From Nitrospiria bacterium (lineage in GTDB: Bacteria > Nitrospirota > UBA9217), in NCBI GenBank assembly GCA_919901555.1, contig CAKKPG010000009.1:1-37717 (forward strand): DNA of 37,717 nt. Direction: 5' to 3'. The notes below the pieces were generated by a model that saw only the letters and a list, made by a program, of their open reading frames with translations, was not told where the DNA came from and searched no databases. A program made the translations under genes and the position numbers. Shown here in pieces: positions 12,551 through 28,532 of the stretch. Position 1 is the stretch's first letter. Each line of letters begins with the position of its first letter.

Positions 12551-12590
12551 GTTTGGTTATTATTGGGGATTTGAGATCCGGAGTTTAGCG
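12488..12590 (+). repeat. degenerate inverted repeat overlapping the nuoF1 end
   Basis: The left part has C/A-rich words (CCAAATC, ACAAACG) and the right part their complements (GATTTTT, GAGTTTG, ATTTGAG). Spacing is near seven bases but is less regular than in the best arrays. The left arm is translated as the last 20 residues of NuoF; the right arm lies in the nuoF1-nuoG1 gap. This looks like an older or decayed member of the period-7 family. Confidence 0.5.
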
Positions 12591-12618
12591 TTACACGCCT
12601 CCGAAGACAATAAAACGT

Positions 12619-14802
12619 ATGCAGCTTACTATTACCATTGACGGAAAAGCCGTGAGCGTAAATCCCGGCGCTACGATCCTCGATGCTGCGAACTCCGCGG
12701 GAGCGAGGATTCCCACCCTGTGCCATGACAACAGGCTCCATCCCTATGGCGCATGCAGGATCTGCATGGTCGAGGTGGAGGGCCCCCCGCGCAGGATGAT
12801 GACCGCGTGCACCACGCCCGCAGCGGACGGCATGATTGTCAACACCGCATCGCCCGCGGTCGTTGAGGCCAGGAAAGACATCCTCGAACTGCTCCTCATC
12901 AACCACCCCCTCGACTGTCCCGTGTGCGACAAGGCGGGAGAGTGCAGACTTCAGGACCTCGTCCATGAATACGGACTCGGCCCGAGTTCGTTCGCCGAAG
13001 AAAAAAGGCAGTTGCCTTCCGACCATGATTCCGCCGTGATTGAACGGAACGCGAACCGTTGCGTCCTCTGCGGAAAGTGCGTCAGGATCTGTAAAGAGCA
13101 GAATGCAGTTGAAGAGCTGGCATTTACCCGGAGAGGCGGTCGATCGCGCATCAGCGTCGCCTTCGACAGGCCTCTGGACTGCGAGTTCTGCGGAGAGTGC
13201 GTTGATATCTGTCCGGTGGGCGCTCTCGGCGCCAAGCAGTTCAAGTACAAGGCCAGGGTCTGGAACTTGGAGCAAACACCATCAACCTGCATCTACTGCG
13301 GCTGCGGTTGTCCCGTCTCGTTAGAAGCGCACAAGGGGAGCGTGGTGAGGATAAGCCCTGCCGATGATAACTATCTGTGCGTCAAAGGACGGTTCGGCTG
13401 GGACGCCGTGCACCACGCCGACCGGCTGACCACGCCGAAGATGCGCGTCGGCGGCGAGCTCGTGGACTGCACCTGGGACGAGGCGCTCGCGGTCATCGCC
13501 ACGAACCTCAAGGTGATCAAGAACAAGCGCGGGGCCGACAGCATCGGCGGCCTCGGCTCGGTCCGGACCACGAACGAAGACAACTATGCATTTCAGAAGT
13601 TCATGCGGATGGTCATCGGGACGAACAATATCGACCTGCTTGCGCGTTTCAAAATACCGAGGGGGATCAACGCATCTTTTTTTTCAGGCGAGCTCGGCAG
13701 GATCGGCGAAAGCGACGTCATTCTTATGCTCGATCAGGACACCGGCGACATCAATCCGTTAACCGGCATCGGGATCGTGCGGGCGGTAAACAGGCGCGGG
13801 AGCAAGCTCATTCTGTGCGGCACCGGACGGAACAAGTTCAAGAGCATTGCATCCGTGGTCATCCCGCAGGATACGGGCAGTGCTCTCGCGTCCCTGACCG
13901 CGGGGTTGCGAAGCGCAAGGAGAATCGTGAGCACCCGCGTCAAGCAGGCTGTCGAACTGCTTACATCCGCCGGGAGCGTAGCCCTTATACTGCCTCCGCG
14001 GCTTGCGCCCGACACGTTCACCCTCGTACGGGAACTTGCCGGCATCCTGAAACAGGTAGCATACTATCCCCTCGTCATGCGGGGGAACATTCAGGGAGCG
14101 ATGGACATGGGGGTGCTGCCGGATTATTTTCCCGGGTATCAGGCCGTATCGCCGGAGACCGCGGCCCTCTGGGGAAAGCGCTGGAACGCCTCCCTTCCGG
14201 AAGCGCGGGGGATGAGCGCCGAGGAGATGATGACGGGGATCGAGCGCGGCAAGCTTTCCGCGCTTTATATCATGGGTGACGATCCCGTCTCCAGCATCCC
14301 GGGACTCGTTCCCATCCTGAGGCGTCTGGAGTTTCTTGTGGTGCAAGACATCTTCATGACCGAGACGGCAAAGATCGCCCACGTGGTCCTGCCGGCCGCA
14401 AGTTTCCTTGAAAGGAGCGGCACGTTCACCAACCTTGAGCGGCGGCTCCGGAGAATCTCGAGGGCGGAGGAACCGCTCGGAGAATCAAAGGAGGATTGGG
14501 AAATCATTCAGGCGATTGCGCACAAGATGGGCAGGCCGATGAACTATGCGTCAGTCGGGGGCATCATGAGCGAGATCAGAACAGGTGTGCCATTCTACGG
14601 GCATCTTGCAGTCAATGCCTGCTGGCCGCGGGAACAATCACCCCTGAGCGGCAGCCTTGCTGATCTTTCTCTTTCGTCCGATTCGATCGCGGCCCATGAG
14701 GTGATCACGGCGGGGCGATTACTCTTCTCTTCCGGCGGCATGATCACCCGTTCAAAAGAGATGGGAACCATCGGCCGCGCATCAACGGAAGCTGAAGTGT
14801 AA
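12619..14802 (+). CDS. nuoG: NADH dehydrogenase subunit G, copy 1 (formate-dehydrogenase-like)
   Basis: NuoG is the large Fe-S subunit of the peripheral arm. The 727-residue protein has an N-terminal [2Fe-2S] domain, a His-Cys3 [4Fe-4S] site (HPLDCPVCDKAGEC), two ferredoxin clusters (CVLCGKCVRIC and CEFCGECVDICP), an N7-type cluster (CIYCGCGCP with a later LCVKG), and a molybdopterin-oxidoreductase-like domain. The catalytic Sec/Cys of formate dehydrogenases is replaced by Lys (LARFKIPRG), so formate oxidation is not expected. No clear Shine-Dalgarno precedes ATG 12619. Bases 13393-13588 are identical to nuoG2. Confidence 0.95.
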   Translation: MQLTITIDGKAVSVNPGATILDAANSAGARIPTLCHDNRLHPYGACRICMVEVEGPPRRMMTACTTPAADGMIVNTASPAVVEARKDILELLLINHPLDCPVCDKAGECRLQDLVHEYGLGPSSFAEEKRQLPSDHDSAVIERNANRCVLCGKCVRICKEQNAVEELAFTRRGGRSRISVAFDRPLDCEFCGECVDICPVGALGAKQFKYKARVWNLEQTPSTCIYCGCGCPVSLEAHKGSVVRISPADDNYLCVKGRFGWDAVHHADRLTTPKMRVGGELVDCTWDEALAVIATNLKVIKNKRGADSIGGLGSVRTTNEDNYAFQKFMRMVIGTNNIDLLARFKIPRGINASFFSGELGRIGESDVILMLDQDTGDINPLTGIGIVRAVNRRGSKLILCGTGRNKFKSIASVVIPQDTGSALASLTAGLRSARRIVSTRVKQAVELLTSAGSVALILPPRLAPDTFTLVRELAGILKQVAYYPLVMRGNIQGAMDMGVLPDYFPGYQAVSPETAALWGKRWNASLPEARGMSAEEMMTGIERGKLSALYIMGDDPVSSIPGLVPILRRLEFLVVQDIFMTETAKIAHVVLPAASFLERSGTFTNLERRLRRISRAEEPLGESKEDWEIIQAIAHKMGRPMNYASVGGIMSEIRTGVPFYGHLAVNACWPREQSPLSGSLADLSLSSDSIAAHEVITAGRLLFSSGGMITRSKEMGTIGRASTEAEV
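13393..13588 (+). repeat. 196-base block identical to part of nuoG2
   Basis: Every base of 13393-13588 matches 24927-25122. Identity stops sharply at both ends, and the flanking nuoG sequence has clear synonymous and amino-acid differences. The block encodes about 65 residues, from FGWDAVHH to TTNEDNY. The best explanation is recent gene conversion between the paralogues, though a collapsed or chimeric assembly could look the same. Confidence 0.9.
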
Positions 14803-14814
14803 GGAGGCAGCGAG

Positions 14815-15009
14815 ATGAGTGTTCAGGAACAGGGGAAACGGATAAAGATCGAGACGTTCATCATTGTGCCGGACGCCTGTCCTGCCGGTTGGGAGCTTAC
14901 GTGCGATTGCTGCGAGTATTCTGATGGCGAATTCCAGCTCGTAAAGCCGGCGTCGGGGTCGGAAAAGGGGTTTGGGTTCGTAGCATGTCACTTTGCAGCT
15001 GCGCCATGA
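14815..15009 (+). CDS. small Cys-rich protein after nuoG1
   Basis: A 64-residue ORF with a strong Shine-Dalgarno (AAGGAGG at 14801-14807, seven bases before ATG), which supports its being real. Cysteines lie in DACPAGWEL, TCDCCEY and VACHF, suggesting a metal or Fe-S site. There is no signal peptide or membrane segment. I do not recognise the family. It is the last gene of operon 1, twelve bases after nuoG. It might be an assembly or accessory factor, inferred from position only. Confidence 0.65.
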   Translation: MSVQEQGKRIKIETFIIVPDACPAGWELTCDCCEYSDGEFQLVKPASGSEKGFGFVACHFAAAP

Positions 15010-15282
15010 AACAGAGAACGGAAAACCCGTCGGGATCCTCCTAAAAACGGCAGTTGAACCACGGATAAACATGGTCCAGGAACTAAAAAAGGCAACTACT
15101 CAGGCCAGCCGCTTCGCTTCGGCGCAAGGCGTTCCAGCATGCCAGTGCCCTTCACGCTGTCGGCGCCCGTACCCGCAGCGCTTTCGCTGCGCACGCGCTG
15201 TTGCGGCTGGAGCGGCGCCGCCATGACGCTTTCATAATCATGTTCTAATACAAAACTGATTTAATCCTGTTCAATGTTTTGC
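15010..15282. other. inter-operon spacer with partial repeat element B
   Basis: This spacer separates the operons; 360 bases pass without a gene if the promoter region is included. Bases 15092-15130 match the left end of the element at 21032 with three differences (AACTACTCAGG, then CCAGCCGCTTCGCTTCGGCG). The matching right end CCTGAGTAGTTAC is absent, so this copy is truncated or diverged. GC-rich palindromic stretches continue to about 15225. No intrinsic terminator with a U-run is seen for operon 1. Confidence 0.6.
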
Positions 15283-15311
15283 TTGACAAAAAAGGCGTAT
15301 TGGCTTATTAT
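15283..15311 (+). promoter_or_regulatory. sigma70-type promoter of operon 2
   Basis: TTGACA (15283-15288) is followed, after exactly 17 bases, by TATTAT (15306-15311). The local sequence is AT-rich against a GC-rich background. The expected start of transcription is near 15318, giving a leader of about 50 bases before nuoA, which has AGGGAG at 15358-15363. This is the only strong promoter seen ahead of the 18.8 kb nuoA-N unit. Confidence 0.75.
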
Positions 15312-15369
15312 GCACCCGTTTTAGAAGTTCTGGTAATTTAAAATTTAATAGTAGTGCAGGGAGTAGCGT

Positions 15370-15744
15370 ATGACACCGGGAACTTATCTGCCGGAACACT
15401 TTCTTCCGGTTGTAATTTTCTTGCTCCTCGGTACCGCGGTAGGCGTCGGCATGCTGGTCGCCAGTTGGTTCATCCGGCCGAGGAACCCCTATCCGGAGAA
15501 GTTGATCACCTACGAATCCGGCATCACTCCCTTCATGGACGCCCATCAGAAGTTTTCTATCCGTTATTACATCGTCGCAATGCTCTTCCTCATATTCGAT
15601 ATTGAAGCCGTCTTCCTCTATCCCTGGGCCGTGGCCTACAACCACATCGGCCTGTACGGCTTCGTGGAAATGGTGGTCTTCATCGCCATCCTGCTCGTGG
15701 GTTACTTCTACGCATGGAAGAAGGGGGCTTTGGAATGGGAGTAA
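15370..15744 (+). CDS. nuoA: NADH-quinone oxidoreductase subunit A
   Basis: NuoA (ND3-type) is a three-helix membrane subunit whose first loop reaches the quinone site. The protein is 124 residues. The loop motif [22 protein letters not shown] is present; the position that is often Cys is Ser, as in E. coli. The second-helix motif [15 protein letters not shown] is intact. ATG 15370 has AGGGAG six bases upstream and is the first gene after the operon 2 promoter. It overlaps nuoB by ten bases. It is the only nuoA in the window, so whether operon 1 has its own is unknown. Confidence 0.96.
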
Positions 15745-16220
15745 TACAAAACCTCTTTGAGGAAGGATATATCACCACAACCATTGATTCCTTCCTGAAT
15801 TACTGCCGGGCAAGCTCCATCTGGCCGATGTCATTCGGGCTTGCGTGTTGCGCCATAGAGATGATCCAATATTATGCCGCACCGCAGCATGATTTTGACC
15901 GCTTCGGCACGGTGCCGCGCCCGTCGCCGCGCCAGTCGGACCTGCTCCTGGTGGCCGGGACGCTCTCGAAAAAGATGGCTCCCGTCCTGCGCCGCGTGTA
16001 TGACCAGATGCCGGAGCCGCGGTACGTTATCGCCATGGGGAGCTGCGCGGCCTCCGGGGGGATCTTCAATACCTACAGCGTGGTGCAGGGGGTGGACAAT
16101 ATCGTCCCCGTGGACGTGTATATCCCGGGCTGCCCGCCGAGGCCCGAGGCCCTGATGGACGGCATCATCAAGCTGCAGGAAAAGATCAAGAAAGAGAAGT
16201 ATATAAGGAAAGAAAAATAA
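15735..16220 (+). CDS. nuoB: NADH-quinone oxidoreductase subunit B
   Basis: NuoB (PSST-type) holds the terminal N2 [4Fe-4S] cluster that reduces quinone. The 161-residue protein has the tandem cysteine ligands Cys38 and Cys39 in [11 protein letters not shown], Cys104 in MGSCAASGG, and Cys133 in [15 protein letters not shown]. The ATG at 15735 overlaps the end of nuoA; an earlier in-frame start would add residues outside the family. It is the only nuoB visible. The gap of about 60 bases to nuoC is GC-rich and unremarkable. Confidence 0.96.
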
Positions 16221-16283
16221 GATCCGGCCGCGAAGGCGCCGGGGCCGCATACTGTTCATCCTTTTAGTCCAAACGAGGCAGTG

Positions 16284-16754
16284 ATGGATCCAGCACAGAT
16301 CGCAAAAATGATAGAAGAAAATTTCGCCGGCCACGTGCTCGGCACGGCGACGCACGCCGGGCAGGTCGGCGTCATGCTCAAGAAAGACCTGATCAAAGAC
16401 ATCTGCCGCTACCTCCGCGATGAGCCTTCGCTCAGGATGGACCACCTGGCCGATCTCACCGCCGTCGATTTCTCCCGGTATCCCGGCGATACCGGACCGC
16501 GGTTCGAGGTCGTGTACAACCTCATCTCGACCGTGTACCGTCATCGCATACGCTTGAAGGCGAGGGTGCCGGAAGAGGACCCGCGGATAGACTCGGTCTC
16601 CTCGGTCTGGCAAACGGCCAACTGGCACGAGCGTGAGACCTACGACCTCATGGGGGTCAAGTTCGACGGCCACCCGGACCCCCGCCGGATCCTCCTGCCC
16701 GAGGACTGGGAAGGGCACCCGCTCAGGAAAGAGTACCCGTTGAAAGGATATTAA
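16284..16754 (+). CDS. nuoC: NADH-quinone oxidoreductase subunit C, copy 2
   Basis: NuoC, 30 kDa-type peripheral-arm subunit, 156 residues. It has RFEVVYNLIS, WHERETYDLMGV, and the terminal [20 protein letters not shown], ending soon after, at the usual place. Operon 1 NuoC carries a longer tail. ATG 16284 has GAGG at 16275-16278; a GTG one codon earlier is less likely. It is separated from nuoD by a 91-base heptad array, whereas nuoC1 and nuoD1 abut directly. The array therefore appears to be an insertion into what was a tight junction. Confidence 0.94.
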   Translation: MDPAQIAKMIEENFAGHVLGTATHAGQVGVMLKKDLIKDICRYLRDEPSLRMDHLADLTAVDFSRYPGDTGPRFEVVYNLISTVYRHRIRLKARVPEEDPRIDSVSSVWQTANWHERETYDLMGVKFDGHPDPRRILLPEDWEGHPLRKEYPLKGY

Positions 16755-16760
16755 GGAAAG

Positions 16761-16851
16761 TTCAAAGTTCAAAATTCAAAGTTCAAAGTGATTTGACGTT
16801 TGGATCTGCCATTTGGTGATTCGTTTGAACTTTGGGCTTTGACATTTGACA
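16761..16851 (+). repeat. period-7 inverted array, nuoC2-nuoD2 gap
   Basis: Thirteen heptads in unbroken register. The left arm is TTCAAAG, TTCAAAA, TTCAAAG, TTCAAAG; the middle is less regular; the right arm is TTTGAAC, TTTGGGC, TTTGACA, TTTGACA. The right-arm words are close to the reverse complement of the left. The array starts six bases after the nuoC stop and ends just before the nuoD ribosome site. No gap exists here in operon 1. Confidence 0.88.
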
Positions 16852-16865
16852 TTCATGGTGACCAT

Positions 16866-18065
16866 ATGTCCGTGACGGAAGCGACGGAAAAAAAGATCGT
16901 TCAAAAAGAACTGACCTTGAACATGGGCCCCCAGCACCCGAGCACCCACGGCGTGCTGCGCCTGGTGCTGGACCTGCAGGGCGAAACGGTGGTGGGCGTG
17001 GACCCCCGTCCGGGCTACCTCCACCGGGGCATCGAGAAGTGGATGGAGAGCAGGACCTACCACCAGATCATCCCCATGACCGACCGGCTGGACTATATTT
17101 CGTGCATGTGCAACAACCTCGGGTATGTGGTAGCGGTCGAAAGACTGGCGGGGATCAACGTACCCGAACGAGCCCAGGTCCTTCGGACGCTTACCGCGGA
17201 GCTTACCCGCATCAGTTCACATCTCATCTGGCTCGGCACCAGCGCGGTGGATATAGGCGCCATGACGGTCCTGCTGTATGCGGCGAGAGAGCGGGAGTTT
17301 ATACTCGATCTCCTCGAAATGGCAACCGGCGCGAGATTGACCGTGAGCTATGCGCGCATCGGCGGCGTGCGGAATGACGTCCCCCGCGACTTCCTTGATA
17401 AATGCCGCGAGTTCACCGAGCTGTTCCCCAAACGGCTCGAAGAGTATGACACGCTCATCCGGGAAAACCGCATCTGGCTCAAGCGCACCGTAGGCATCGG
17501 CGTCATGGCCGCCGGGGAAGCGATAAACTATGGACTGACCGGCGCCTCGCTCAGGGGCTCGGGAGTGAACTACGATCTCCGCAAGGTAGAACCCTATGCG
17601 GCATACGACAAGGTGGAGTTCGACGTGCCGCTCGGCAAGAACGGCGATGTGTACGACCGGTACCTTGTGCGCATCAACGAGATGCGCCAGAGCAATCGGA
17701 TCATCAAACAGTGCCTCGACCTGTTGAAGCCCGGTCCGATCACGACAAACGACCCGCGCTATGCCGTGCCTGACAAGATAAACGTGATGAAGAACATGGA
17801 GTCTCTCGCCCACCAGTTCGTGCTCATGAGCAAGTGGGTCCCCATGCCCGCGGGCGAAGTGTATGTGGCCACGGAAGGCTCGAAGGGCGAGCTCGGCTTC
17901 TATATCGTGAGCGACGGGAGCGGCAGGCCCTACCGCATCAAGATCCGCGCCCCGTCGTACGTGAATTTGAGCGCCCTCCCCGCGATGGCGACCGGCCACA
18001 TGATGTCGGACATGGTCGCGTGCATCGGCGCCATCGACATCGTGCTCGGTGAGTGCGACCGTTAG
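16866..18065 (+). CDS. nuoD: NADH-quinone oxidoreductase subunit D, copy 2
   Basis: NuoD, 49 kDa-type quinone-site subunit of 399 residues. It has [27 protein letters not shown], and the C-terminal AIDIVLGECDR. The frame is open upstream through the heptad array, but the ATG at 16866, with GGTGA four bases ahead, gives the family start. Its end is the junction to the regulatory cassette. Its core is very similar to copy 1, while the N-terminal ten or so residues differ. Confidence 0.96.
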   Translation: MSVTEATEKKIVQKELTLNMGPQHPSTHGVLRLVLDLQGETVVGVDPRPGYLHRGIEKWMESRTYHQIIPMTDRLDYISCMCNNLGYVVAVERLAGINVPERAQVLRTLTAELTRISSHLIWLGTSAVDIGAMTVLLYAAREREFILDLLEMATGARLTVSYARIGGVRNDVPRDFLDKCREFTELFPKRLEEYDTLIRENRIWLKRTVGIGVMAAGEAINYGLTGASLRGSGVNYDLRKVEPYAAYDKVEFDVPLGKNGDVYDRYLVRINEMRQSNRIIKQCLDLLKPGPITTNDPRYAVPDKINVMKNMESLAHQFVLMSKWVPMPAGEVYVATEGSKGELGFYIVSDGSGRPYRIKIRAPSYVNLSALPAMATGHMMSDMVACIGAIDIVLGECDR

Positions 18066-18088
18066 AGACCGATGAACGAGGTGGTGGT

Positions 18089-18448
18089 GTGGCCCTGCTC
18101 ACGCTGCGTGCGGTAAAGAAAGCCCTGGGAGCGGAAACGATCTTCGGCGACGAGCTGCTGGATGCCATAGAAGTGGACAGCTGCTACAGCGCCGATCTCA
18201 TGAGCGACGTGCTCGCCCGGTCAAGGGCGAACGGCGTTCTCCTCACCGGGTTGACGAACCCTCAGGCGGTGAGGACGGCGGAGATGGCCGACATCAAAGC
18301 GGTCTGTTTCGTGCGCGGGAAGAAGATCGATAACGGTACGATCCAGCTGGCCCGGGAAAAAAATATTCCGCTCCTCGTCACGAAGCTCACGATGTTCGAA
18401 GCATGCGGCATTCTCTACCAGGCCGGCCTGCGGGGCGTTCCCGAGTAG
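18089..18448 (+). CDS. DRTGG-domain protein 1
   Basis: A 119-residue protein of the DRTGG fold, a small domain also found in HPr-kinase and phosphotransacetylase N-terminal regions. It is typical of gene clusters around ferredoxin/NAD [FeFe]-hydrogenases. The conserved region reads SCYSADLMSDVLARS; the DRTGG motif itself is degenerate here. The C-terminal part (IPLLVTKLTMFEACGILY) matches the second DRTGG protein. GTG 18089 has AGGTG five bases upstream. It begins a five-gene cassette between nuoD and nuoE. The function is thought to be regulatory ligand sensing, but is not proven. Confidence 0.82.
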   Translation: MALLTLRAVKKALGAETIFGDELLDAIEVDSCYSADLMSDVLARSRANGVLLTGLTNPQAVRTAEMADIKAVCFVRGKKIDNGTIQLAREKNIPLLVTKLTMFEACGILYQAGLRGVPE

Positions 18449-18471
18449 GATCGGAGGAGCGGTAACCATAC

Positions 18472-19407
18472 GTGGCGACTGAGCCCAGATTAACGAAGAC
18501 CCAGGAGCTCGTTTACGAGATCACGGTGAGCGAGGCCATGGCCGCCGACGTGGTAACGGTGGGGCCGGACCAGACCATGGCGGACCTCCGCATCATCATG
18601 CGGGACAACCGCATCTCCGGCACCCCCGTGGTGGAAGACGGCAGGCTCGTGGGCATGATCAGCATCGAAGACCTGATCAATGCGCTGCTCAACAACGATA
18701 TCGACGCCCCCATCCGGGAAAAGATGACGACGAAGGTGGAGTGCTTCTACGCCGACGAGCCCCTGGTGCACACCTTCGCGAAGTTTTCCAAGTACGGGCA
18801 CAGCCGGTATCCCGTGCTCGAGCGCGACGGCAGGCTGGCGGGGATCATCACCAAGGGAAACGTTGTCCAGGGCCTGCTCAAAAAGCTCGAGATCGAATTC
18901 GAGATCACCGAGGCGAAACAGGGCTCGTCCCGGCGGGACCGGCCCACGATCCGGAAGTTCTTTGAAGATGTTTACGCCGACGAGATCAGCTTCACCTTCA
19001 AGTACCTTGTGGCGGGCCAGAACCTGAAGGGGACGGGAAAGGCCGCGAGCGAACTGAAGAGCGCGCTCAAAATTCTCGGCGTCTGCCCGAGCCTGCTCAG
19101 GCGGATCGGGGTGGCCACCTATGAGGCCGAGATCAACCTCGCCTCCTATACCAAAGGGGGCGAGATCCGAGCCCTCGTGGAGAAGTGGGGCATCACCGTG
19201 GAGGCCATCGACGGCGGTCCGGGCATTCCCGATGTCGAACTTGCCATGCAGCCGGGGTATTCCACCGCGCCCGACTGGGTCCGGGAGCTGGGGTTCGGCG
19301 CAGGCATGGGACTGGTGAACATCAAAAAATGCTCCGATGAAATGGAGCTCAAGTCCTCGGTACCCGAGGGGACGCATCTGACCATGAAGTTCTACTACAC
19401 GTCCTGA
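18472..19407 (+). CDS. CBS-pair plus anti-sigma-like ATPase
   Basis: A 311-residue regulator with two CBS domains (about residues 20-137, with SGTPVVEDGRLVGMIS and YPVLERDGRLAGIIT), then an RsbW/SpoIIAB-like ATP-binding domain. The ATPase N box is near Asn222 (YEAEINLASYT), G1 is DGGPGIPD near 247, and G2 is GFGAGMGLVNI near 274. CBS pairs usually sense adenine nucleotides and the kinase domain phosphorylates a partner protein, so it could link energy charge to expression or activity of the complex. It starts at GTG 18472, with GGAGGAG somewhat far upstream. It lies between the two DRTGG genes. Confidence 0.87.
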   Translation: MATEPRLTKTQELVYEITVSEAMAADVVTVGPDQTMADLRIIMRDNRISGTPVVEDGRLVGMISIEDLINALLNNDIDAPIREKMTTKVECFYADEPLVHTFAKFSKYGHSRYPVLERDGRLAGIITKGNVVQGLLKKLEIEFEITEAKQGSSRRDRPTIRKFFEDVYADEISFTFKYLVAGQNLKGTGKAASELKSALKILGVCPSLLRRIGVATYEAEINLASYTKGGEIRALVEKWGITVEAIDGGPGIPDVELAMQPGYSTAPDWVRELGFGAGMGLVNIKKCSDEMELKSSVPEGTHLTMKFYYTS

Positions 19408-19419
19408 CCGGGAGGGACC

Positions 19420-19761
19420 ATGAAGCTCAAAGACCTCGTGCGGGAGTTCGGTTTGGAAGTGAAGGCCGGTGCGGGGCTCCTCGACCGGGACGTTACGGGA
19501 GGCTACGTGAGCGACCTCATGTCGGACGTGCTGGCCCATGCTGTTGACGGGAACGTGTGGGTCACGCTCCACATCCACCAGAACATCGTGGCCGTGGCCG
19601 CGCACAAGGGACTCGCGGGCATCATCCTCGTTCAGGGCAGGCAGCCTGAGAAGGACACCGTGGCCAAGGCCGCGGAAGAGGGCATCCCCGTCATGGTGAG
19701 CGCCTTCCCCGCCTTCGAACTGGTGGGCAGATTGTACAAGGCGGGCATCCGTGGCGCTTAG
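19420..19761 (+). CDS. DRTGG-domain protein 2
   Basis: A 113-residue DRTGG protein. The motif is near-canonical: DRDVTGGYVSDLMSDVLAHA at residues 22-41. The C-terminus (VSAFPAFELVGRLYKAGI) is paralogous to DRTGG protein 1, so the pair may form a heteromer. ATG 19420 has GGAGG at 19411-19415. Its end overlaps the start of the PHP gene by eleven bases. It could be a phosphorylation target or partner of the adjacent ATPase, which is an inference from gene order. Confidence 0.85.
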   Translation: MKLKDLVREFGLEVKAGAGLLDRDVTGGYVSDLMSDVLAHAVDGNVWVTLHIHQNIVAVAAHKGLAGIILVQGRQPEKDTVAKAAEEGIPVMVSAFPAFELVGRLYKAGIRGA

Positions 19762-20497
19762 GCGCATCAGGGCCGACCTTCACATACATACCTGCCTGTC
19801 GCCCTGCGCCGGCCTGGATATGTCGCCCCGGGGCGTCGTCCGCGCGGCCCTGGAAAAGGGCCTGGACCTGATCGGCGTGTGCGACCACAACTCGGCCGAA
19901 AACGTTCTGGCCGTGAAGCGGGCGGCTGAACGGCACGGCCTTCTGGTCCTGGGCGGCATGGAGGTTGCTTCTTCGGAAGAGGCGCACTTCCTCGTGTTCT
20001 TTGACCTCGATGACGACCTGCTCCGGTTCCAGGAACTGGTGTACGGGCACCTGAGCGGCACGAATGATGAAAAGGCCTTCGGGCAGCAGGTGGTTGCCGA
20101 CGAGGACGACGGGGTCACCGGATTCAGCGACCGGCTTCTCATCGGCGCCAGCTCCCTTCCGGCGCAGACGATCATCGACGCCGCGCACGCGGGGACAGGC
20201 GAGGGCCTGGTGGTCGCGGCCCATGTGGACCGCGAGGCCTTCAGCATCATCGGGCAGCTCGGCTTCATCCCCGAGGGCCTCAGCCTTGATGCGGTAGAGG
20301 TCTCGGAGCATACGACCGCCGAAGAGGCGAGAGAACGCTTTCCCGACTGCAGGAACTACCCGGTCATTACCGGCTCGGACGCCCATGCACCGGAGGACAT
20401 CGGGAAACGGCATACGTGCTTCATTATGGAAGACGCAAGTGTCGGCGAGATAAAAAAGGCCCTTGCCGGCAGGGACGGCAGGAAGGCGGTCTGCTGA
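19751..20497 (+). CDS. PHP-family metal-dependent phosphoesterase
   Basis: A 248-residue PHP-superfamily enzyme (trinuclear-metal phosphoesterase fold). The metal ligands are visible: His11 and His13 (DLHIHTCLSP), Asp45-His46 (GVCDHNSAEN), Glu71, His158 (VAAHVD), and Asp210 and His212 (GSDAHAPED). The substrate is unknown; relatives hydrolyse small phosphates or nucleotides. The start is GTG 19751, overlapping the upstream stop. In hydrogenase operons a PHP gene is part of this same cassette. It might oppose phosphorylation by the neighbouring ATPases or clear a signalling nucleotide, but this is untested. Confidence 0.88.
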   Translation: MALRRIRADLHIHTCLSPCAGLDMSPRGVVRAALEKGLDLIGVCDHNSAENVLAVKRAAERHGLLVLGGMEVASSEEAHFLVFFDLDDDLLRFQELVYGHLSGTNDEKAFGQQVVADEDDGVTGFSDRLLIGASSLPAQTIIDAAHAGTGEGLVVAAHVDREAFSIIGQLGFIPEGLSLDAVEVSEHTTAEEARERFPDCRNYPVITGSDAHAPEDIGKRHTCFIMEDASVGEIKKALAGRDGRKAVC

Positions 20498-20501
20498 AGG
20501 C

Positions 20502-21035
20502 GTGGAAGATCTATCGCTCCACATCCTCGATATCGCCGAGAACTCCGTACGGGCCCGTGCGAAGAGGATAGAGATCACGATAACAAGGGACGCCGCCGGG
20601 GACCTCCTCACCGTGGAGGTGAAGGACGACGGCAGCGGCATGGACCAGGAGACGCTTGCGCGGGTCCGCGATCCCTTCTTTACGACAAAAGGTAAAAAGA
20701 CCGGCCTGGGCATTCCGTTCCTGGCACAGGCGGCCGAGCAGGCCGGCGGCGCATTGACCATTGACTCGGCGCCGGGCACAGGCACGCGGATGTCGGTCAC
20801 GTTCAAATGGAGCCATGTTGACCGGCCCGTAATCGGCAGCATGGCGGATACGCTGCTCACGCTGATCGCCGGTCATCCGGACCTTGATGTTCTGTACGAA
20901 GAGCGTGACGACGGCGGGGTCTTCCGGTTCGATACGCGCGAGATCAAGAAGGACCTGGAAGAAGTCCCGATCAACGCCCCCGAGGCGCTTGACGCGATCA
21001 GGGCCATGCTGAAGGAGCAGATAAAATTTGAGTAA
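20502..21035 (+). CDS. stand-alone GHKL ATPase (histidine-kinase-like, no H box)
   Basis: A 177-residue protein with a GHKL ATP-binding fold from the first residues. The N box is ILDIAENSVRA (Asn14), G1 is DDGSGMD (42-48), the F box is DPFFTTKG, and G2 is KTGLGIPF (about 67-73). There is no dimerisation/phospho-His domain or sensor, and the C-terminal 60 residues are a separate acidic/basic helix region. It could bind ATP and regulate, or act as a kinase with a separate substrate. GTG 20502 lies four bases after the PHP stop; the start is not certain. Its stop codon falls inside the left end of a repeat element. Confidence 0.83.
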   Translation: MEDLSLHILDIAENSVRARAKRIEITITRDAAGDLLTVEVKDDGSGMDQETLARVRDPFFTTKGKKTGLGIPFLAQAAEQAGGALTIDSAPGTGTRMSVTFKWSHVDRPVIGSMADTLLTLIAGHPDLDVLYEERDDGGVFRFDTREIKKDLEEVPINAPEALDAIRAMLKEQIKFE

Positions 21036-21113
21036 CTACTCAGGTCAGCCACTTCGCTTCGGCGCAAGGCGCGCTTTTTGCGCCTGTGCTCAGCGGCGGA
21101 CCTGAGTAGTTAC
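21032..21113 (+). repeat. dispersed inverted-repeat element, copy C
   Basis: An 82-base element bounded by a perfect 15-base inverted repeat, GTAACTACTCAGGTC (21032-21046) and GACCTGAGTAGTTAC (21099-21113). The interior is GC-rich with further stem potential (GGCGCAAGGCGCG / TTTTTGCGCC). The left end contains the stop codon of the GHKL ATPase gene. It separates the regulatory cassette from nuoE, so it may also act as an RNA processing or decay barrier. Related copies are at 6915 and 15092. Confidence 0.85.
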
Positions 21114-21155
21114 AAATTTGAAATGTGAAATTTCAAATTGCTGAAGAGGTAAACG

Positions 21156-21665
21156 ATGGGTAACGAAGCGGTTGCACAGCAGGCTGCCACGGACAATGAG
21201 ACCATAACCCCGGAGATGTACCGGAGGATCGACTCGATCATCGAGCGGTATAAAGACAAGCCCGGGTCCCTCATCCCGGTGCTCCAGCAGGCGCAGGACG
21301 TATGCGGCTATCTGCCGCACCCGGTACAGCGCTACGTTGCCAAGGGGCTCAGGATGTCGCCCAGCGTGGTGTTCGGCGTGGCCACCTTCTACTCCTTCTT
21401 CACCCTCGTGCCGCGCGGCAAGCATGTCATCCGCGTCTGCCTCGGCACGGCGTGCTACGTGAAGCGGAGCGAAGAGATCCTCGACAAGATCAAGGCCGAA
21501 CTGGAGCTTGAGGTCGGTGAGATCACGAGGGACAAGAAGTATTCCCTCGAGGCCGTGCGCTGCCTCGGCGCCTGCGGCCTCGCGCCGGTGGTGGTCGTGG
21601 ACCAGGACACCTACGGCGACGTGGCAGCCACGAAAGTGATGGATATTCTGAAGAAGTATGAGTAG
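21156..21665 (+). CDS. nuoE: NuoE/HndA-type [2Fe-2S] subunit, copy 2
   Basis: A 169-residue 24 kDa-type subunit. The four cluster ligands are Cys95 and Cys100 (CLGTAC), Cys136 and Cys140 (CLGAC). It is as close to HndA/HydC of bifurcating hydrogenases as to classical NuoE, and the next two genes (hndB and long nuoF) reinforce that link. The N-terminal helical part has VLQQAQDVCGYLPHPVQRYVA and VVFGVATFYSFFTLV. ATG 21156 is preceded by GAAGAGG. It follows the dispersed repeat element. Confidence 0.94.
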   Translation: MGNEAVAQQAATDNETITPEMYRRIDSIIERYKDKPGSLIPVLQQAQDVCGYLPHPVQRYVAKGLRMSPSVVFGVATFYSFFTLVPRGKHVIRVCLGTACYVKRSEEILDKIKAELELEVGEITRDKKYSLEAVRCLGACGLAPVVVVDQDTYGDVAATKVMDILKKYE

Positions 21666-21666
21666 G

Positions 21667-21736
21667 GAATAGCAAATAGTGAATAGCGAGAACCGCTCAA
21701 TCTCTAATGTCTATTAACTATTTTCTTATAATTAAG
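21667..21736 (+). repeat. period-7 inverted array, nuoE2-hndB gap
   Basis: Ten heptads in register: GAATAGC, AAATAGT, GAATAGC on the left and GTCTATT, AACTATT, TTCTTAT on the right, which are near-complements. It starts one base after the nuoE stop and ends at the hndB ribosome site (AAGGA). Confidence 0.8.
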
Positions 21737-21744
21737 GATGAATC

Positions 21745-22128
21745 ATGGCTAAGCTGACAATCGCGGACCTTAAAAAAATCAAGGAAGAGTACCACGCCGG
21801 CCAGGCCCTGCGCGAGGGCGGCTTCAAGGTCAAGATCACGGTCCACATGGGCACCTGCGGCATCGCCGCCGGGGCGCGTCCCATCATGAACGTTATTCTC
21901 GAAGAACTTGCCAAATCCGGCCGGAAGGACATAGCCGTTACCACGTCAGGCTGCGCCGGCCTGTGCAGCAAGGAACCCATGATGACCATTGAACTGAGCG
22001 GCGAAGCGCCGGTGCGGTACATCGCCCTCACCGAGGAAAAGGCCCGAAAGATATTCGCCGAGCACGTTATGGCCGGCAAGCCGGTCAAAGAGTACGCCCT
22101 GGTCGTGGGGCATGAAACTACCTACTGA
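21745..22128 (+). CDS. hndB: HndB-like [2Fe-2S] ferredoxin-domain subunit
   Basis: A 127-residue thioredoxin-like [2Fe-2S] protein of the HndB type. Cysteines are Cys38 (MGTCGIAAGA), Cys70 and Cys74 (SGCAGLCSKEP). The N-terminal helix LADLKKIKEE-like segment and the central fold are typical. In Desulfovibrio the NADP-reducing hydrogenase has a homologous HndB subunit; classical complex I does not. It lies between nuoE and the long nuoF, so it is probably an extra electron carrier in this dehydrogenase module. Only three Cys are obvious, so cluster ligation needs checking. ATG 21745 has AAGGA at 21734-21738. Confidence 0.9.
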   Translation: MAKLTIADLKKIKEEYHAGQALREGGFKVKITVHMGTCGIAAGARPIMNVILEELAKSGRKDIAVTTSGCAGLCSKEPMMTIELSGEAPVRYIALTEEKARKIFAEHVMAGKPVKEYALVVGHETTY

Positions 22129-22135
22129 CGTAGTA

Positions 22136-22219
22136 TTGGAAATTGTAAATTGGAAACTGTAAATTTGAAATTTTAATATAAATACCACAACTTTACAATT
22201 TACAATTTAAAATTTACAG
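22136..22219 (+). repeat. period-7 inverted array, hndB-nuoF2 gap
   Basis: Twelve heptads in unbroken register: TTGGAAA, TTGTAAA, TTGGAAA, CTGTAAA, TTTGAAA, TTTTAAT, then ATAAATA, CCACAAC, then TTTACAA, TTTACAA, TTTAAAA, TTTACAG. The right arm is the reverse complement type of the left (TTTACAA versus TTGTAAA). It is AT-rich in a GC-rich genome and ends ten bases before the nuoF CGGAG site. Confidence 0.9.
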
Positions 22220-22240
22220 TTTTTTTTCGGAGCTACTATC

Positions 22241-24028
22241 GTGGAAACATACCGTTCGAACATAATGATCTGCGCGGGCACGGGCTGCGTGGCAAACGGC
22301 TCACTCAAGGTCAAGGACGCCCTCGAGACCGAGCTTATCAAGCGCAACCTCCAGAAGGAGGTCAAGGTCGTGCTCACCGGCTGCAACGGGTTCTGCGCCA
22401 AGGGCCCGGTGATGGTGGTCTACCCCGAGGACATCTTCTACCAGATGGTGAAGGCCGAGGATGTGCCGCACCTGGTGGAAGAGCATTTCATCAAGGGGCG
22501 GCCGGTCAAGAAGTTCCTCTACACGCCGCCGGCCCAGAAGGACGCCATCCCGGTGATGAACGAGATCCCCTTCTTCAAGCACCAGGTGCTGCGGGCGCTG
22601 CGGAACCGGAGTCTCATCGACGCCGAGAAGATCGAGGAGTATATCGCCCGCGACGGCTACCTGGCGGCGGCAAAGGCGCTCACCGAAATGACGCCCGAGC
22701 AGATCGTGAACGAGGTCAAGAACTCAGGGCTTCGCGGCAGGGGCGGCGCGGGCTTCCTGACGGGGCTCAAGTGGGAGCTCTGCGCACGGGTCTCCGGCGA
22801 GATCAAGTACATCCTGTGCAACGGCGACGAGGGCGACCCCGGCGCCTTCATGGACCGCAGTATCATGGAGGCAGACCCCCACTCGGTCCTTGAAGGTATG
22901 ATCGTTGCGGCCAAGGCCATCGGCGCGCACTATGGATATATTTACGTCCGGGCCGAGTATCCTCTCGCCGTGCACCGCCTGCAGCTGGCGATCGACCAGG
23001 CGAAGGAGAACGGACTTCTGGGAAAAGACATCCTTGGCTCAGGGTTCGACCTCGACCTCGAGATCTACCAGGGCGCAGGCGCATTCGTCTGCGGCGAAGA
23101 GACGGCGCTCATGGCGTCGATCGAGGGAAAGCGCGGCATGCCGAGGCCCAAGCCGCCCTTCCCGGCGGTGAAGGGACTGTGGCAGCGGCCCTCGGTGCTG
23201 AACAACGTGGAGACCTTTGCCAACGTTCCCCCCATCATTCTGAGCGGCGCGGACTGGTTCGCAAGCCTCGGGACCGAGAAGAGCAAGGGCACCAAGGTCT
23301 TCGCCCTCTCGGGCGCGCTGAACAACATCGGCCTCGTGGAAGTGCCCATGGGCATCCCGCTCCGCACCGTTATCTTCGATATCGGCGGCGGCATCAAAGG
23401 CAACCGCAAGTACAAGGCCGTACAGATGGGGGGCCCCTCCGGCGGCTGTATCCCCGAGTCCCTCCTTGACACACCTGTAGATTACGAAAACATCAACAAG
23501 ACCGGCGCCATCATGGGATCGGGCGGTATGGTGGTCATGGACGAGACCACGTGCATGCCGGCCATGGCCAAGTTCTTCCTCGAGTTTACCGAGGACGAAT
23601 CCTGCGGCAAGTGCGTGCCCTGCCGGGTCGGGAACAAGACCCTGCTCACGATCCTCGCCCGGATAACGAAGGGCGAGGGCCGCGAGGGAGACATAGAGCT
23701 TCTCCTCGACCTGTCGCAGCAGATCAAGGACACCTCGCTCTGCGGGCTCGGCCAGACCTCGCCCAACCCGGTGCTCACGACGATCAAGTACTTCCGGGAA
23801 GAATACGAGGCGCACATCAAGGAAAAACGGTGTCCCGCCCGGGTCTGCACGCCTCTCGTCAAGTTTGTGGTGAACGACGAGAAATGCAAAAAGTGCGGCA
23901 CGTGCTTCAAGGCCTGTCCCGCGGGCGCCATCACGTGGGAGAAGGGCAAGGTCGCTTATATCGATCCGGAAAAGTGCACCAAGTGCAAATCTTGCATCAA
24001 GTCGTGCAAGTTCTGGGCGATTGATTAA
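22241..24028 (+). CDS. nuoF: long NuoF/HndC-type NADH-binding flavoprotein, copy 2
   Basis: A 595-residue flavoprotein with three parts: a thioredoxin-like [2Fe-2S] domain (Cys11, 16, 48, 52); the NuoF core with GRGGAGFLTG, NGDEGDPGAFMDR and SCGKCVPC; and a C-terminal two-[4Fe-4S] ferredoxin domain (Cys549, 552, 555, 559 and 579, 582, 585, 589). Between core and tail, Cys501, His525, Cys531 and Cys536 resemble the zinc site of HydB-type bifurcating subunits. The build is that of HydB/HndC rather than classical NuoF. It probably exchanges electrons among NADH, ferredoxin-type carriers and NuoG. GTG start 22241 with CGGAG at 22228-22232. Confidence 0.95.
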   Translation: METYRSNIMICAGTGCVANGSLKVKDALETELIKRNLQKEVKVVLTGCNGFCAKGPVMVVYPEDIFYQMVKAEDVPHLVEEHFIKGRPVKKFLYTPPAQKDAIPVMNEIPFFKHQVLRALRNRSLIDAEKIEEYIARDGYLAAAKALTEMTPEQIVNEVKNSGLRGRGGAGFLTGLKWELCARVSGEIKYILCNGDEGDPGAFMDRSIMEADPHSVLEGMIVAAKAIGAHYGYIYVRAEYPLAVHRLQLAIDQAKENGLLGKDILGSGFDLDLEIYQGAGAFVCGEETALMASIEGKRGMPRPKPPFPAVKGLWQRPSVLNNVETFANVPPIILSGADWFASLGTEKSKGTKVFALSGALNNIGLVEVPMGIPLRTVIFDIGGGIKGNRKYKAVQMGGPSGGCIPESLLDTPVDYENINKTGAIMGSGGMVVMDETTCMPAMAKFFLEFTEDESCGKCVPCRVGNKTLLTILARITKGEGREGDIELLLDLSQQIKDTSLCGLGQTSPNPVLTTIKYFREEYEAHIKEKRCPARVCTPLVKFVVNDEKCKKCGTCFKACPAGAITWEKGKVAYIDPEKCTKCKSCIKSCKFWAID

Positions 24029-24041
24029 TAGAAACCTTCAC

Positions 24042-24128
24042 CGCGGAGGACGCGGAGAACGCAGAGAAAGCAAATTCGAGGCTCAACACTCAAGGTCAAA
24101 ACTCTGCGATCTCAGCGATCTCAGCGGT
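24042..24128 (+). repeat. period-9 inverted repeat, nuoF2-nuoG2 gap
   Basis: The left arm is CGCGGAGGA, CGCGGAGAA, CGCAGAGAA; the right arm is CTCTGCGAT, CTCAGCGAT, CTCAGCGGT, near-complementary. The period is nine rather than seven, and the 33-base middle breaks register. Architecture and position (stop codon to next ribosome site) are otherwise as in the period-7 arrays. Confidence 0.85.
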
Positions 24129-24152
24129 AAAACAGGCTTAAGGTAAAAAACC

Positions 24153-26318
24153 ATGGAAATCACCGTTACCGTTGACGGAAAAGCCGTAAAAGTGAAAGCC
24201 GGGGCCACGATCCTCGACGCCGCGAAGGCGGCGGGCTCCCGCGTCCCGACCCTCTGCCACGACAATAAGCTCCATCCCTTCGGGGCCTGCAGGATCTGCC
24301 TCGTGGAGCTGGAGGGATCGCCGCGCAAGTTCACGCCGTCGTGCACCACGCCGGCGATCGACAACATGGTGGTGCGGACCAGCTCCCCGGCGCTCATCGA
24401 GGCGAGGAGGATGATCCTCGAGCTCCTGCTCATCAAACACCCCCTGGACTGCCCCGTCTGCGACAAGGCAGGCGAATGCCGGCTCCAGGACCTGGTGCAC
24501 GAGTACGGCCTCGGCGAGAGCAGGTTTGATGCGGAGAAGGGATACCTCCCGCCGGACTACGAGAGCGCCGTCATTGAGCGGAACATCAGCCGCTGCATCC
24601 TCTGCGGCAAGTGCGTGCGCATCTGCGACGAGCAGAACGCCGTGGGAGAGTGGGCCTTCACGCGGCGCGGCACGCGGACGAGGATCAGCACCGACTTCGA
24701 CCGGCCGCTGGACTGCGAATTTTGCGGCGAATGCGTGGAGATCTGCCCCGTGGGCGCGCTCACCACGCGTCAGTTCAAGTATAAGGCGCGGAGCTGGAGC
24801 CTCGAGGGGACGCCGTCTGTCTGCAACTACTGCGGCTGCGGCTGCCCCGTCTCCTTTGAACGGCGGGACGGCAAGATCATGCGGGTGAGCCCGGCCAGGG
24901 AGAACTATCTCTGCGCCAAGGGCCGCTTCGGCTGGGACGCCGTGCACCACGCCGACCGGCTGACCACGCCGAAGATGCGCGTCGGCGGCGAGCTCGTGGA
25001 CTGCACCTGGGACGAGGCGCTCGCGGTCATCGCCACGAACCTCAAGGTGATCAAGAACAAGCGCGGGGCCGACAGCATCGGCGGCCTCGGCTCGGTCCGG
25101 ACCACGAACGAAGACAACTATGTGTTCCAGAAGTTCATGCGCGCCGTGATCGGGACGAACAACGTGGACACGCTTGCCCGGCTCAAGGCGCCGCGGGGAC
25201 TGAACACGGCGTTCTTTTCGGGCGAGCTGTCGCGCATGGGCGGTCACGAGGTCATCCTCATGCTCGACAAGGACGCGGGCGAGATCAACCCGCTCACGGG
25301 CATCGAGGTCGTCCGCGCCGTCAATAAAAAGGGCAGGAACCTGATCCTCGTAAACGGCGGGTACAATAAGTTCAACAAGATCGCGTCCGTCGTCCTCGAC
25401 TACAATACTCCCGAGGTCGCCCTCGCGGAACTGCTCCAGGCGATGTCCTCGGGGACCGGCAGCGACGCGATAAAGAAGGCGGCGGAGATGCTCAAGGGCG
25501 CGGGGAGCGTTGCCCTCATCGTGCCGGCCTTCCTGACGGACAAGGAATATGCGCGGACCAGGGAGTTCGCTTCGCAGCTCAAGAACGTCACCTTCTATCC
25601 TCTCGTGCGAAGGAGCAACTTCCAGGGCTCCCTCGACATGGGGGTGCTCCCGGACTACTATCCCGGGTACCAGAAGGCGAACGCCGAGACCACGGCTTCC
25701 TTTGCCAAGGCCTGGGACGCCATCCTGCCCGAGACGGCCGGGATGAACGCCGTTCAGATGATAGACGGCATCAAGTCGGGGAAGCTCGCCGCCCTCTACA
25801 TCATGGGCGACGATCCCGCGGCGAGCAACCCGAACCTCAAGGCCCTTCTCGACGGGCTGGAATTCCTCGTGGTGCAGGATATCTTTATGACCGAGACGGC
25901 CAGGATCGCCGACGTGGTCCTGCCCGCCGCGAGCTGGGTGGAGAAGACCGGGACGTTTACGAACCTCGAGCGGCGGCTCCAGCAGATCAGGTCGGCCGAA
26001 GAGCCCGTTGCCGAGTCCCGTCCCGACTGGGAGATCATCCAGGCCCTTGCAAAGAAGATGGGCGGGTCCCTGCACTATGGCTCGGCACGGGACATCATGA
26101 ACGAGATCAGGTCCACGACGCCCCTCTATGCGGACCTGGCCCCGGGATCGATATGGCCGCAAGAGAAGTCCCCGCTGGCGGGCGCCGATGCCGACCTTTC
26201 CCTTTCGTCGGATGTGATCAACAAGAAGGAAGTGATCGCCGCCGAGCGCCTCCTGTTCTCGTCAGGCATGACGATCACGCGCTCGAAGGAAATAGGGACC
26301 ATACGGCACAATTGCTAA
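24153..26318 (+). CDS. nuoG: NADH dehydrogenase subunit G, copy 2 (formate-dehydrogenase-like)
   Basis: A 721-residue large Fe-S subunit. Ligands in order: [2Fe-2S] Cys35, 46, 49, 64; His96-Cys100, 103, 109; ferredoxin clusters Cys148, 151, 154, 158 and Cys188, 191, 194, 198; N7-type Cys224, 227, 231, 254; then a molybdopterin-oxidoreductase-like domain. The catalytic Sec/Cys of formate dehydrogenases is Lys (LARLKAPRG, near residue 345), so no formate activity is expected. It is closely paralogous to NuoG1. AAGG upstream supports ATG 24153. It takes the place a hydrogenase catalytic subunit would have in an Hnd operon. Confidence 0.96.
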   Translation: MEITVTVDGKAVKVKAGATILDAAKAAGSRVPTLCHDNKLHPFGACRICLVELEGSPRKFTPSCTTPAIDNMVVRTSSPALIEARRMILELLLIKHPLDCPVCDKAGECRLQDLVHEYGLGESRFDAEKGYLPPDYESAVIERNISRCILCGKCVRICDEQNAVGEWAFTRRGTRTRISTDFDRPLDCEFCGECVEICPVGALTTRQFKYKARSWSLEGTPSVCNYCGCGCPVSFERRDGKIMRVSPARENYLCAKGRFGWDAVHHADRLTTPKMRVGGELVDCTWDEALAVIATNLKVIKNKRGADSIGGLGSVRTTNEDNYVFQKFMRAVIGTNNVDTLARLKAPRGLNTAFFSGELSRMGGHEVILMLDKDAGEINPLTGIEVVRAVNKKGRNLILVNGGYNKFNKIASVVLDYNTPEVALAELLQAMSSGTGSDAIKKAAEMLKGAGSVALIVPAFLTDKEYARTREFASQLKNVTFYPLVRRSNFQGSLDMGVLPDYYPGYQKANAETTASFAKAWDAILPETAGMNAVQMIDGIKSGKLAALYIMGDDPAASNPNLKALLDGLEFLVVQDIFMTETARIADVVLPAASWVEKTGTFTNLERRLQQIRSAEEPVAESRPDWEIIQALAKKMGGSLHYGSARDIMNEIRSTTPLYADLAPGSIWPQEKSPLAGADADLSLSSDVINKKEVIAAERLLFSSGMTITRSKEIGTIRHNC
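24927..25122 (+). repeat. 196-base block identical to part of nuoG1
   Basis: Partner of 13393-13588, identical at all 196 positions, inside otherwise diverged paralogues. The block's codon usage (heavy use of GCG, CTC and CGC) fits the surrounding nuoG2 better than nuoG1, which suggests nuoG2 was the donor. Confidence 0.9.
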
Positions 26319-26322
26319 GCCC

Positions 26323-26344
26323 CCTCTCCCTCGGAGGGGAGAGG
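26323..26344 (+). repeat. GC-rich hairpin between nuoG2 and nuoH2
   Basis: The stem is CCTCTCCC (26323-26330) / GGGAGAGG (26337-26344) with a six-base loop, just after the nuoG stop. It is followed by a G-rich GTGAGGGTGA-type stretch to about 26390. There is no U-run, so it may be a REP-like element or a processing site at the boundary between the dehydrogenase genes and the membrane-arm genes. Confidence 0.6.
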
Positions 26345-26417
26345 AAGTGAAGGTGAGGGTGAATCTCCGCTCGGGGCGGGGGTGAGGGTCATAGAGATCG
26401 AAGTGTAGGAGCAGAAC

Positions 26418-27500: not shown

Positions 27501-27552
27501 ACCCCGCTTAGAGAAGGAAGTCCTCGAACGGGGTAAAGAGAGGTTTCGTGCG

Positions 27553-28528: not shown

Positions 28529-28532
28529 AATA

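Follow-up and report, generated by a model that had tools for sequence, protein, structure and literature searches.

The window analyzed here is the 37,717-nucleotide stretch at positions 1–37,717 of contig CAKKPG010000009.1, assembly GCA_919901555.1, from a Nitrospiria bacterium (Nitrospirota, UBA9217) whose genome is 96.5% complete. It features a cassette of five genes at 18053–21035 that is located between nuoD2 and nuoE2 of a complex I operon and is co-directional with the nuo genes on the + strand. Open reading frame (ORF) listing and scans with Pfam and NCBIfam confirmed that the five genes are intact and that they follow the order given in an initial annotation of the sequence, DRTGG, CBS plus ATPase, DRTGG, PHP and GHKL. 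The gaps, in gene order, are −12, 23, 12, −11 and 1 bp; the block overlaps or nearly touches nuoD2, and nuoE2 starts 120 bp past the end of the GHKL gene. A simple consensus scan detected no promoter-like site between 17900 and 22100.

The first gene encodes a small DRTGG-domain protein, DRTGG_A (18053–18448), whose start is perhaps the GTG at 18089, which fits the family alignment better than the ORF start at 18053. It carries an SDLMSDV motif with Ser51 and occupies the same place in relatives. The second gene (18472–19407) encodes a CBS pair (residues 19–135) fused to a SpoIIAB/RsbT-like GHKL ATPase (residues 175–311), as determined from Pfam, fold and motifs. A second small DRTGG-domain protein, DRTGG_B (19420–19761), features the same SDLMSDV motif with Ser35, and was assigned by Pfam, its AlphaFold2 fold and its relatives. 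It is followed by a PHP-domain phosphoesterase (19751–20497; PF02811/PF13263 and motifs) and by a GHKL ATPase without a HisKA domain (20499–21035; PF02518), which ends in a conserved C-terminal domain of ~75 amino acids recognized by alignment.

Two complex I gene sets are found in the window, and only the second (15370–34203) contains the cassette. The upstream half of this operon consists of nuoA2-nuoB2-nuoC2-nuoD2 (15370–18065, +; nuoD model TIGR01962, 559 bits). Downstream of the cassette, on the same strand, are nuoE2 (BfuC; 21156–21665), a thioredoxin-like [2Fe-2S] subunit (PF01257, 7e-51), an HndB-like [2Fe-2S] protein (21745–22128) that is the genomic companion of the cassette by Pfam and alignment profile, nuoF2 of the BfuB type (22241–24028), and nuoG2 (24153–26318), which combines a BfuA-like head with a molybdopterin-oxidoreductase-type domain (Pfam/NCBIfam). 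The membrane arm, nuoH2-I2-J2-K2-L2-M2-N2 (26418–34203), completes the operon in an order that is kept in relatives L035 and L036. The BfuABC genes thus sit inside a complex I operon, with nuoA2 to nuoN2 surrounding nuoE2-hndB-nuoF2-nuoG2. Pfam scans of NuoF2, a protein of 595 amino acids, revealed an N-terminal thioredoxin-like 2Fe-2S domain, a flavin mononucleotide (FMN) domain, a B1 4Fe-4S domain and a C-terminal 2×4Fe-4S domain. The ligands of the B2 cluster in the Bfu family are C438, C/T476, H525, C531 and C536, of which the histidine is reported to be absent in non-bifurcating homologues (PMC9304861). NuoF2 carries all of them (C438, T476, H525, C531 and C536), whereas NuoF1 lacks both end domains and has a cysteine in place of the B2 histidine. 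For this reason the second complex I is assigned, on sequence grounds, as a Nuo-Bfu enzyme, and coupled use of NADH and reduced ferredoxin is predicted for it. The Nuo-Bfu type, with a BfuABC core amid a 14-subunit complex I, was already predicted for Nitrospirae (Schut et al. 2022, PMC9304861), and NuoF2 has all the BfuB features tested. The text of that paper, however, mentions neither PHP nor kinase and describes no five-gene cassette or link of one to the Bfu core. The novelty of the locus is the cassette and not the enzyme type.

The first complex I set (53–14802) contains a canonical nuoE1F1G1 (10565–14802) and has neither a cassette nor the Bfu residues. A CRP-like cyclic-nucleotide-binding protein (10083–10562) precedes nuoE1, and a universal-stress-like protein (2890–3366) lies between nuoH1 and nuoI1. 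A 196-bp identical block is shared by nuoG1 (13393–13588) and nuoG2 (24927–25122), which elsewhere are roughly 55–75% identical per 150-column block; the block therefore points to recent gene conversion.

Conservation and co-occurrence with the Bfu module

The five-gene block recurs between nuoD and nuoE in 7 of 8 further genomes of the same family, with 58–81% identity per protein, and because of this recurrence the arrangement is not due to chance. The exception is locus L039 (genome G001), where CRP, nuoE1 and nuoF1 separate nuoD from the cassette. L039 features a single operon (8095–15968), nuoABCD-CRP-nuoE1-nuoF1-cassette-nuoE2-hndB-nuoF2-nuoG2-nuoH, that unites canonical and Bfu-type NADH modules in one complex I operon.

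With DRTGG_B as the query, a search of GTDB species genomes identified at least 562 relatives, of which the best 80 loci were analyzed and annotated with the window proteins. These 80 loci span Nitrospirota, Bacteroidota, Deltaproteobacteria, Planctomycetota, KSB1, WOR-3, Neomarinimicrobiota, Spirochaetes and Firmicutes, and one common order is found across loci: DRTGG_A, ATPase, an optional position termed slot X, DRTGG_B, PHP and GHKL. Of the 37 loci in this 80-locus set that have long flanks, 28 feature HndB/NuoF no more than 10 kb from the cassette, and just 10 feature catalytic HydA there. A scan for viral copies of the cassette found none. The gene set is real and widespread, and it is under-described. 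The operon Halsa_1862-1871 of Halanaerobium hydrogeniformans likewise has PHP, histidine kinase, Fe-S binding hydrogenase and anti-sigma/Ser-Thr kinase genes beside HydABC-type genes (PMC4237134); however, this is one operon list that assigns no function, a hydrogenase is present, DRTGG is unnamed and there is no CBS fusion. A description of the cassette as a unit, or of a tie to the Bfu core, was not found in the open-licence literature, a mention in a subscription journal being possible, and almost nothing was found there on DRTGG together with hydrogenase, PHP, CBS or anti-sigma factors.

The Bfu partners adjacent to the cassette are of five types: a HydA group A6 hydrogenase (e.g., L065 and L124), a formate-dehydrogenase/NuoG-like protein (L048, L051 and L091), an HdrA-like protein with or without a VhuG-like subunit (L062 and L098), NuoF fused to a pyridine-nucleotide reductase as in Nfn-Bfu/Stn (L053, L084 and L095), and complex I. 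Three cassette sites are found in complex I operons, namely nuoD/nuoE in the family of the window, nuoG/nuoH in L137 (Nitrospirota), and nuoN/nuoE in L095, where the cassette is placed between nuoH-N and nuoEBFG. L095 is a deltaproteobacterium. In the cassette tree the three sites belong to different branches, which argues that the cassette was associated with the NADH module repeatedly and under selection. Gene fusions of PHP with GHKL (L062 and L083), of the slot X protein, a group D protein described below, with DRTGG_B (L110), and of CBS with ATPase are also found; the first two support physical links among the cassette proteins. Locus L068 contains a frame (16031–18160) beside a CBS-type cassette that joins a NuoG-like 2Fe-2S N-terminus to an amidohydrolase and is a candidate fusion or an assembly error.

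Phylogenetic profiles were determined in 197 Nitrospirota and 247 Bacillota genomes, largely metagenome assemblies. HndB was called at E ≤ 1e-40 in Nitrospirota; in Bacillota the cassette was called at E ≤ 1e-20, PF02906 above 120 bits and HndB/BfuB at 1e-20, and these thresholds were chosen after score gaps had been seen. The cassette is present in 40 of the 197 Nitrospirota genomes and PF02906, the [FeFe]-hydrogenase domain, in 8, with zero overlap. PF02906 is absent from the whole genome of the window, as the initial annotation had supposed for this locus, and [FeFe]-hydrogenase was likewise not found in the sampled family of that genome. Strong HndB matches were found in 40/40 cassette genomes versus 7/157 others (Fisher 6e-35), and five of these seven cassette-free matches are fused frames. 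A family-stratified Cochran–Mantel–Haenszel test gave p ~1e-9, with eight families concordant for presence and absence. The cassette and HndB are on separate contigs in 13 of the 40 genomes, and linkage alone therefore does not explain their co-occurrence. Among the Bacillota, the cassette is present in 35 of 247 genomes; an HndB/BfuB N-domain match is found in 30 of these 35, versus a catalytic [FeFe]-hydrogenase in only 12 and none in the other 23. That the cassette tracks the HndB/NuoF (BfuB-type) NADH-ferredoxin module and not hydA is well supported. The initial annotation had proposed that the cassette follows this module, and the profiles bear this out in both phyla, with two qualifications: Bfu enzymes without a cassette are common, and in Bacillota a HydA homologue, the group D protein, was tracked.

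The sensor position and group D proteins

The slot X protein of hydrogenase-type and several other cassettes is ~455 amino acids long and features N-terminal ferredoxin motifs and a PF02906 domain. A C-terminal Cx2Cx4Cx16C motif is present in 18/18 proteins, C299 is lost in aligned L1 motifs, and no PAS model matched on the two proteins scanned. These features, the C-terminal Cx2Cx4Cx16C, no PAS and no C299, are the published hallmarks of the putative sensory hydrogenases of group D (M2e), of which TamHydS is one (PMC8163306). The same protein type fills slot X in many cassettes (TamHydS: PMC8163306, PMC13104023). It is, however, missing in the window, where a CBS pair is found instead, and it occurs in relatives without catalytic hydrogenase, HydF or HydG. 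In Bacillota, at the sensitivity used, 26 cassette genomes and no others have the group D protein.

Of the 90 loci that possess ATPase, DRTGG_B and PHP, 41 have group D, 20 have CBS, 29 have neither and 0 have both. Loci in which the ATPase carries a fused CBS pair, the window included, have an empty slot X. The cassette thus has an exchangeable sensor position, which the initial annotation had missed. A tree of the concatenated cassette proteins groups the CBS types together in a single clade (SH-aLRT 96), in which the complex I lineage of the window nests among HdrA and Nfn types, and the group D types are basal on both sides of the midpoint root. The simplest reading is a loss of group D and an acquisition of the CBS pair.

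The maturases of the hydrogenase were searched in 39 genomes. HydF and HydG are above the cut-off only in genomes with a catalytic hydrogenase (HydG 10/10, HydF 8/10, the HydF of genome G311 falling just under the cut-off), and both are found in 0/20 genomes that have group D without a catalytic hydrogenase. The latter group is represented by loci L098, L095, L126–L132 and L134, by genomes G205, G207 and G265, and by others. With no HydF or HydG, group D in these genomes cannot obtain a [2Fe] subsite by the known route. It is unlikely that group D in maturase-free genomes senses H2 via a normal H-cluster; its conserved cysteines could nevertheless bind 4Fe-4S clusters. The group D proteins of maturase-free genomes much resemble those of hydrogenase-bearing genomes, and this reading leaves the resemblance unexplained.

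Three Bacillota loci (L130, L131 and L134) feature a reduced variant composed of DRTGG_B, DRTGG_A, ATPase and group D, in which genes for PHP and GHKL are missing. The reduced cassette of L130 and L131 adjoins a NuoF fusion and a NuoG/Pyr_redox/molybdopterin fusion of 1256–1266 amino acids; L134 is a short contig. Additionally, Nitrospirota loci L048, L051, L061, L070, L135 and others have a histidine kinase of ~535 amino acids directly before DRTGG_A. Such kinases accompany cassettes without CBS or group D, and the one scanned (L048) features HAMP, HisKA and HATPase domains. The upstream histidine kinase is possibly a third kind of cassette input.

Folds and conserved residues of the cassette proteins

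The Pfam matches of the window proteins have E-values of 5e-27 for CBS, 1.3e-7 for HATPase_c_2, 4.8e-7 for PHP and 4.6e-18 for HATPase_c. The AlphaFold2 model of DRTGG_B (pLDDT 96.7) matches 2ioj (TM 0.82), the N-domain of HPr kinase (1ko7) and the CBS-pyrophosphatase 3l2b, and the modeled fold assigns DRTGG_B to the DRTGG fold. The DRTGG proteins feature an SDxxSDV motif, the second serine of which is invariant in DRTGG_B (90/90 full-cassette relatives). A STAS homology had been considered for DRTGG based on its similar SDxxSDV...TGL motif and was rejected, since the model matches DRTGG/HPr kinase and no STAS is among the matches listed; Pfam found no STAS-domain partner in the block. The CBS and DRTGG region of family II pyrophosphatase (3l2b, 3l31) is likewise paired as a regulatory unit, in that case within one polypeptide, whereas the window has separate proteins, two ATPases and a PHP enzyme.

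Structure comparison determined that the ATPase domain linked to CBS has the SpoIIAB fold (1til/1l0o/1th8, TMt 0.84–0.85), with an N-box YEAEIN at residue 217 and a G1 box DGGPGI at 247. The N-box Glu (N-4) and Asn of switch kinases are kept in 90/90 of the cassette ATPases, and the G boxes nearly always. Fold and N-box, G1 and G2 residues are common to this ATPase and the SpoIIAB/RsbT/RsbW switch kinases, and kinase activity is predicted. Those kinases, however, have a STAS partner, whereas the ATPase of the window has a DRTGG partner, a fused CBS pair and a place in a respiratory operon. The CBS motifs of the window protein are GMISIED and GIITKGN; both domains carry a GhxS/TxxD-type adenine-nucleotide motif, in which N replaces D in the second domain, and both match CBS structures that bind AMP, ADP or Ap4A.

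The PHP protein has the motifs DLHIH (9), CDHNSAEN (44), ME (70–71), AAHVD (156) and GSDAH (208), and its metal ligands are present. The GHKL protein (178 amino acids) has ATP-binding boxes; only HATPase_c models match it in Pfam, and a HisKA-type phospho-acceptor is absent. Regular-expression checks of the PHP and GHKL motifs over all loci used BLAST-trimmed segments and are partly informative. The initial annotation had suggested a complete phospho-switch, which agrees with the N-box of the ATPase, the serine of the SDV motif of DRTGG_B (90/90 each) and the PHP metal ligands and is at odds with the second ATPase, which lacks a phospho-acceptor domain. The phospho-switch is a hypothesis.

Proposed control mechanism and alternative explanations

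The conserved order, the Bfu co-occurrence, the independence of hydrogenase, the repeated recruitment and the exchangeable sensor argue, on balance and with modest confidence, that the block is a portable unit dedicated to controlling the NADH-ferredoxin module of the Bfu type (HydBC/NuoEF-HndB), and that it acts as a post-translational switch. Gene content, order, co-occurrence in two phyla, folds and residues were observed, and each reaction of the scheme is inferred from them. A sensor would drive the SpoIIAB/RsbT-type ATPase. In the lineage of the window this sensor would be the CBS pair, which is expected to read adenine nucleotides, and in many other lineages it would be the group D Fe-S/H-cluster-type protein. 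The ATPase would phosphorylate or sequester both DRTGG proteins, the probable site being the invariant serine of the SDV motif, and PHP (sometimes fused to the GHKL ATPase), together with GHKL, would reset, reverse or edit the signal. The DRTGG proteins may in turn control the NADH/ferredoxin reaction at the NuoE-HndB-NuoF core, such that, for example, the confurcation of ferredoxin plus NADH into complex I would be stopped at low energy charge or low reduced ferredoxin.

Several observations weigh against a control unit of this kind. STAS is the fold that is phosphorylated by the known RsbT/SpoIIAB kinases, and the DRTGG fold differs from it. Both DRTGG matches (PF07085; 7e-5 for DRTGG_A and 2.8e-4 for DRTGG_B) fall under the Pfam cut-off, and the kinase, phosphatase, ligand and target roles are predictions from sequence. 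The HndB model, being derived from cassette loci, favours cassette genomes, in 9 of the 37 long loci the nearest 10 kb contain no NADH module, and 5 Bacillota cassette genomes have no HndB/BfuB match at 1e-20. One of these five (G372/L131) has a BfuB-type NuoF beside the cassette, and the threshold therefore misses some. Finally, many Bfu enzymes, including those of Bfu-bearing clostridia, have no cassette; the relation is therefore one-way, in that a cassette implies Bfu and not the reverse.

The cassette could also be an assembly or maturation set, in which the GHKL ATPases and DRTGG proteins insert clusters or FMN into the Bfu core or join the core to its partner. A cluster-rich core that is constantly linked while the partners change would be expected of such a set, the N-box of GHKL, ENS(x)DAGA, is in our reading of the alignment closer to MutL-type ATPases than to kinases, and hisK and hydD are reported to lie outside the Bfu holoenzyme (PMC9304861). 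However, many Bfu enzymes are made without the cassette, and a phosphoesterase together with a sensor slot that takes either CBS or group D is more in keeping with signalling, which makes assembly an unlikely function. Transcriptional partner switching is improbable to a similar degree. Here the ATPase would be an anti-sigma-type factor with the DRTGG proteins as antagonists, and the cassette would set expression of the operon. The closest solved structures of the ATPase are anti-sigma F factors, and a histidine kinase gene adjoins the cassette in many Nitrospirota; however, neither a sigma factor nor a STAS protein is encoded in the cassette or in the conserved genes around it, DRTGG is a fold other than STAS, and the cassette lies inside the operon, co-directional, at three positions.

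A somewhat more doubtful proposal is the turnover of a nucleotide signal without protein phosphorylation, with PHP degrading, e.g., Ap4A or pAp that is read by CBS/DRTGG. The ligands bound in CBS and CBS/DRTGG structures include AMP, Ap4A and c-di-AMP (3l2b/3l31 are among the matches), and PHP relatives include nucleases and bisphosphate phosphatases, but the SpoIIAB-type kinase residues in 90/90 are left unexplained and cassettes without PHP and GHKL exist (L130 and L131). That the cassette is a relic of hydrogenase-associated genes left behind is very improbable and largely refuted: its parts are documented in hydrogenase operons (PMC4237134, PMC8163306) and group D is a HydA homologue, but a catalytic hydrogenase is found in 0/40 Nitrospirota and 12/35 Bacillota cassette genomes, the genes are intact with their catalytic residues, and there were three recruitments into complex I operons.

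The control unit proposed here addresses an open question, how bifurcating enzymes are switched to avoid wasting ferredoxin and NADH, and it places the regulatory unit with the Bfu core and not with the hydrogenase. The identification of signalling and interaction partners of group D has been called for (PMC13104023, 2026), and an ATPase neighbouring group D was already noted (PMC8163306). The cassette names two candidates, the adjacent SpoIIAB/RsbT-like ATPase and DRTGG_B, which is fused to group D in one genome, and the genomes with group D but without maturases are a natural experiment. More tentatively, a general, transferable regulator of Bfu bifurcation with exchangeable sensors may exist, in which group D would read redox state and not H2 in bacteria free of hydrogenase and maturases, and in which the unit of the window, with its CBS adenine-nucleotide sensor, would control a ferredoxin-using complex I.

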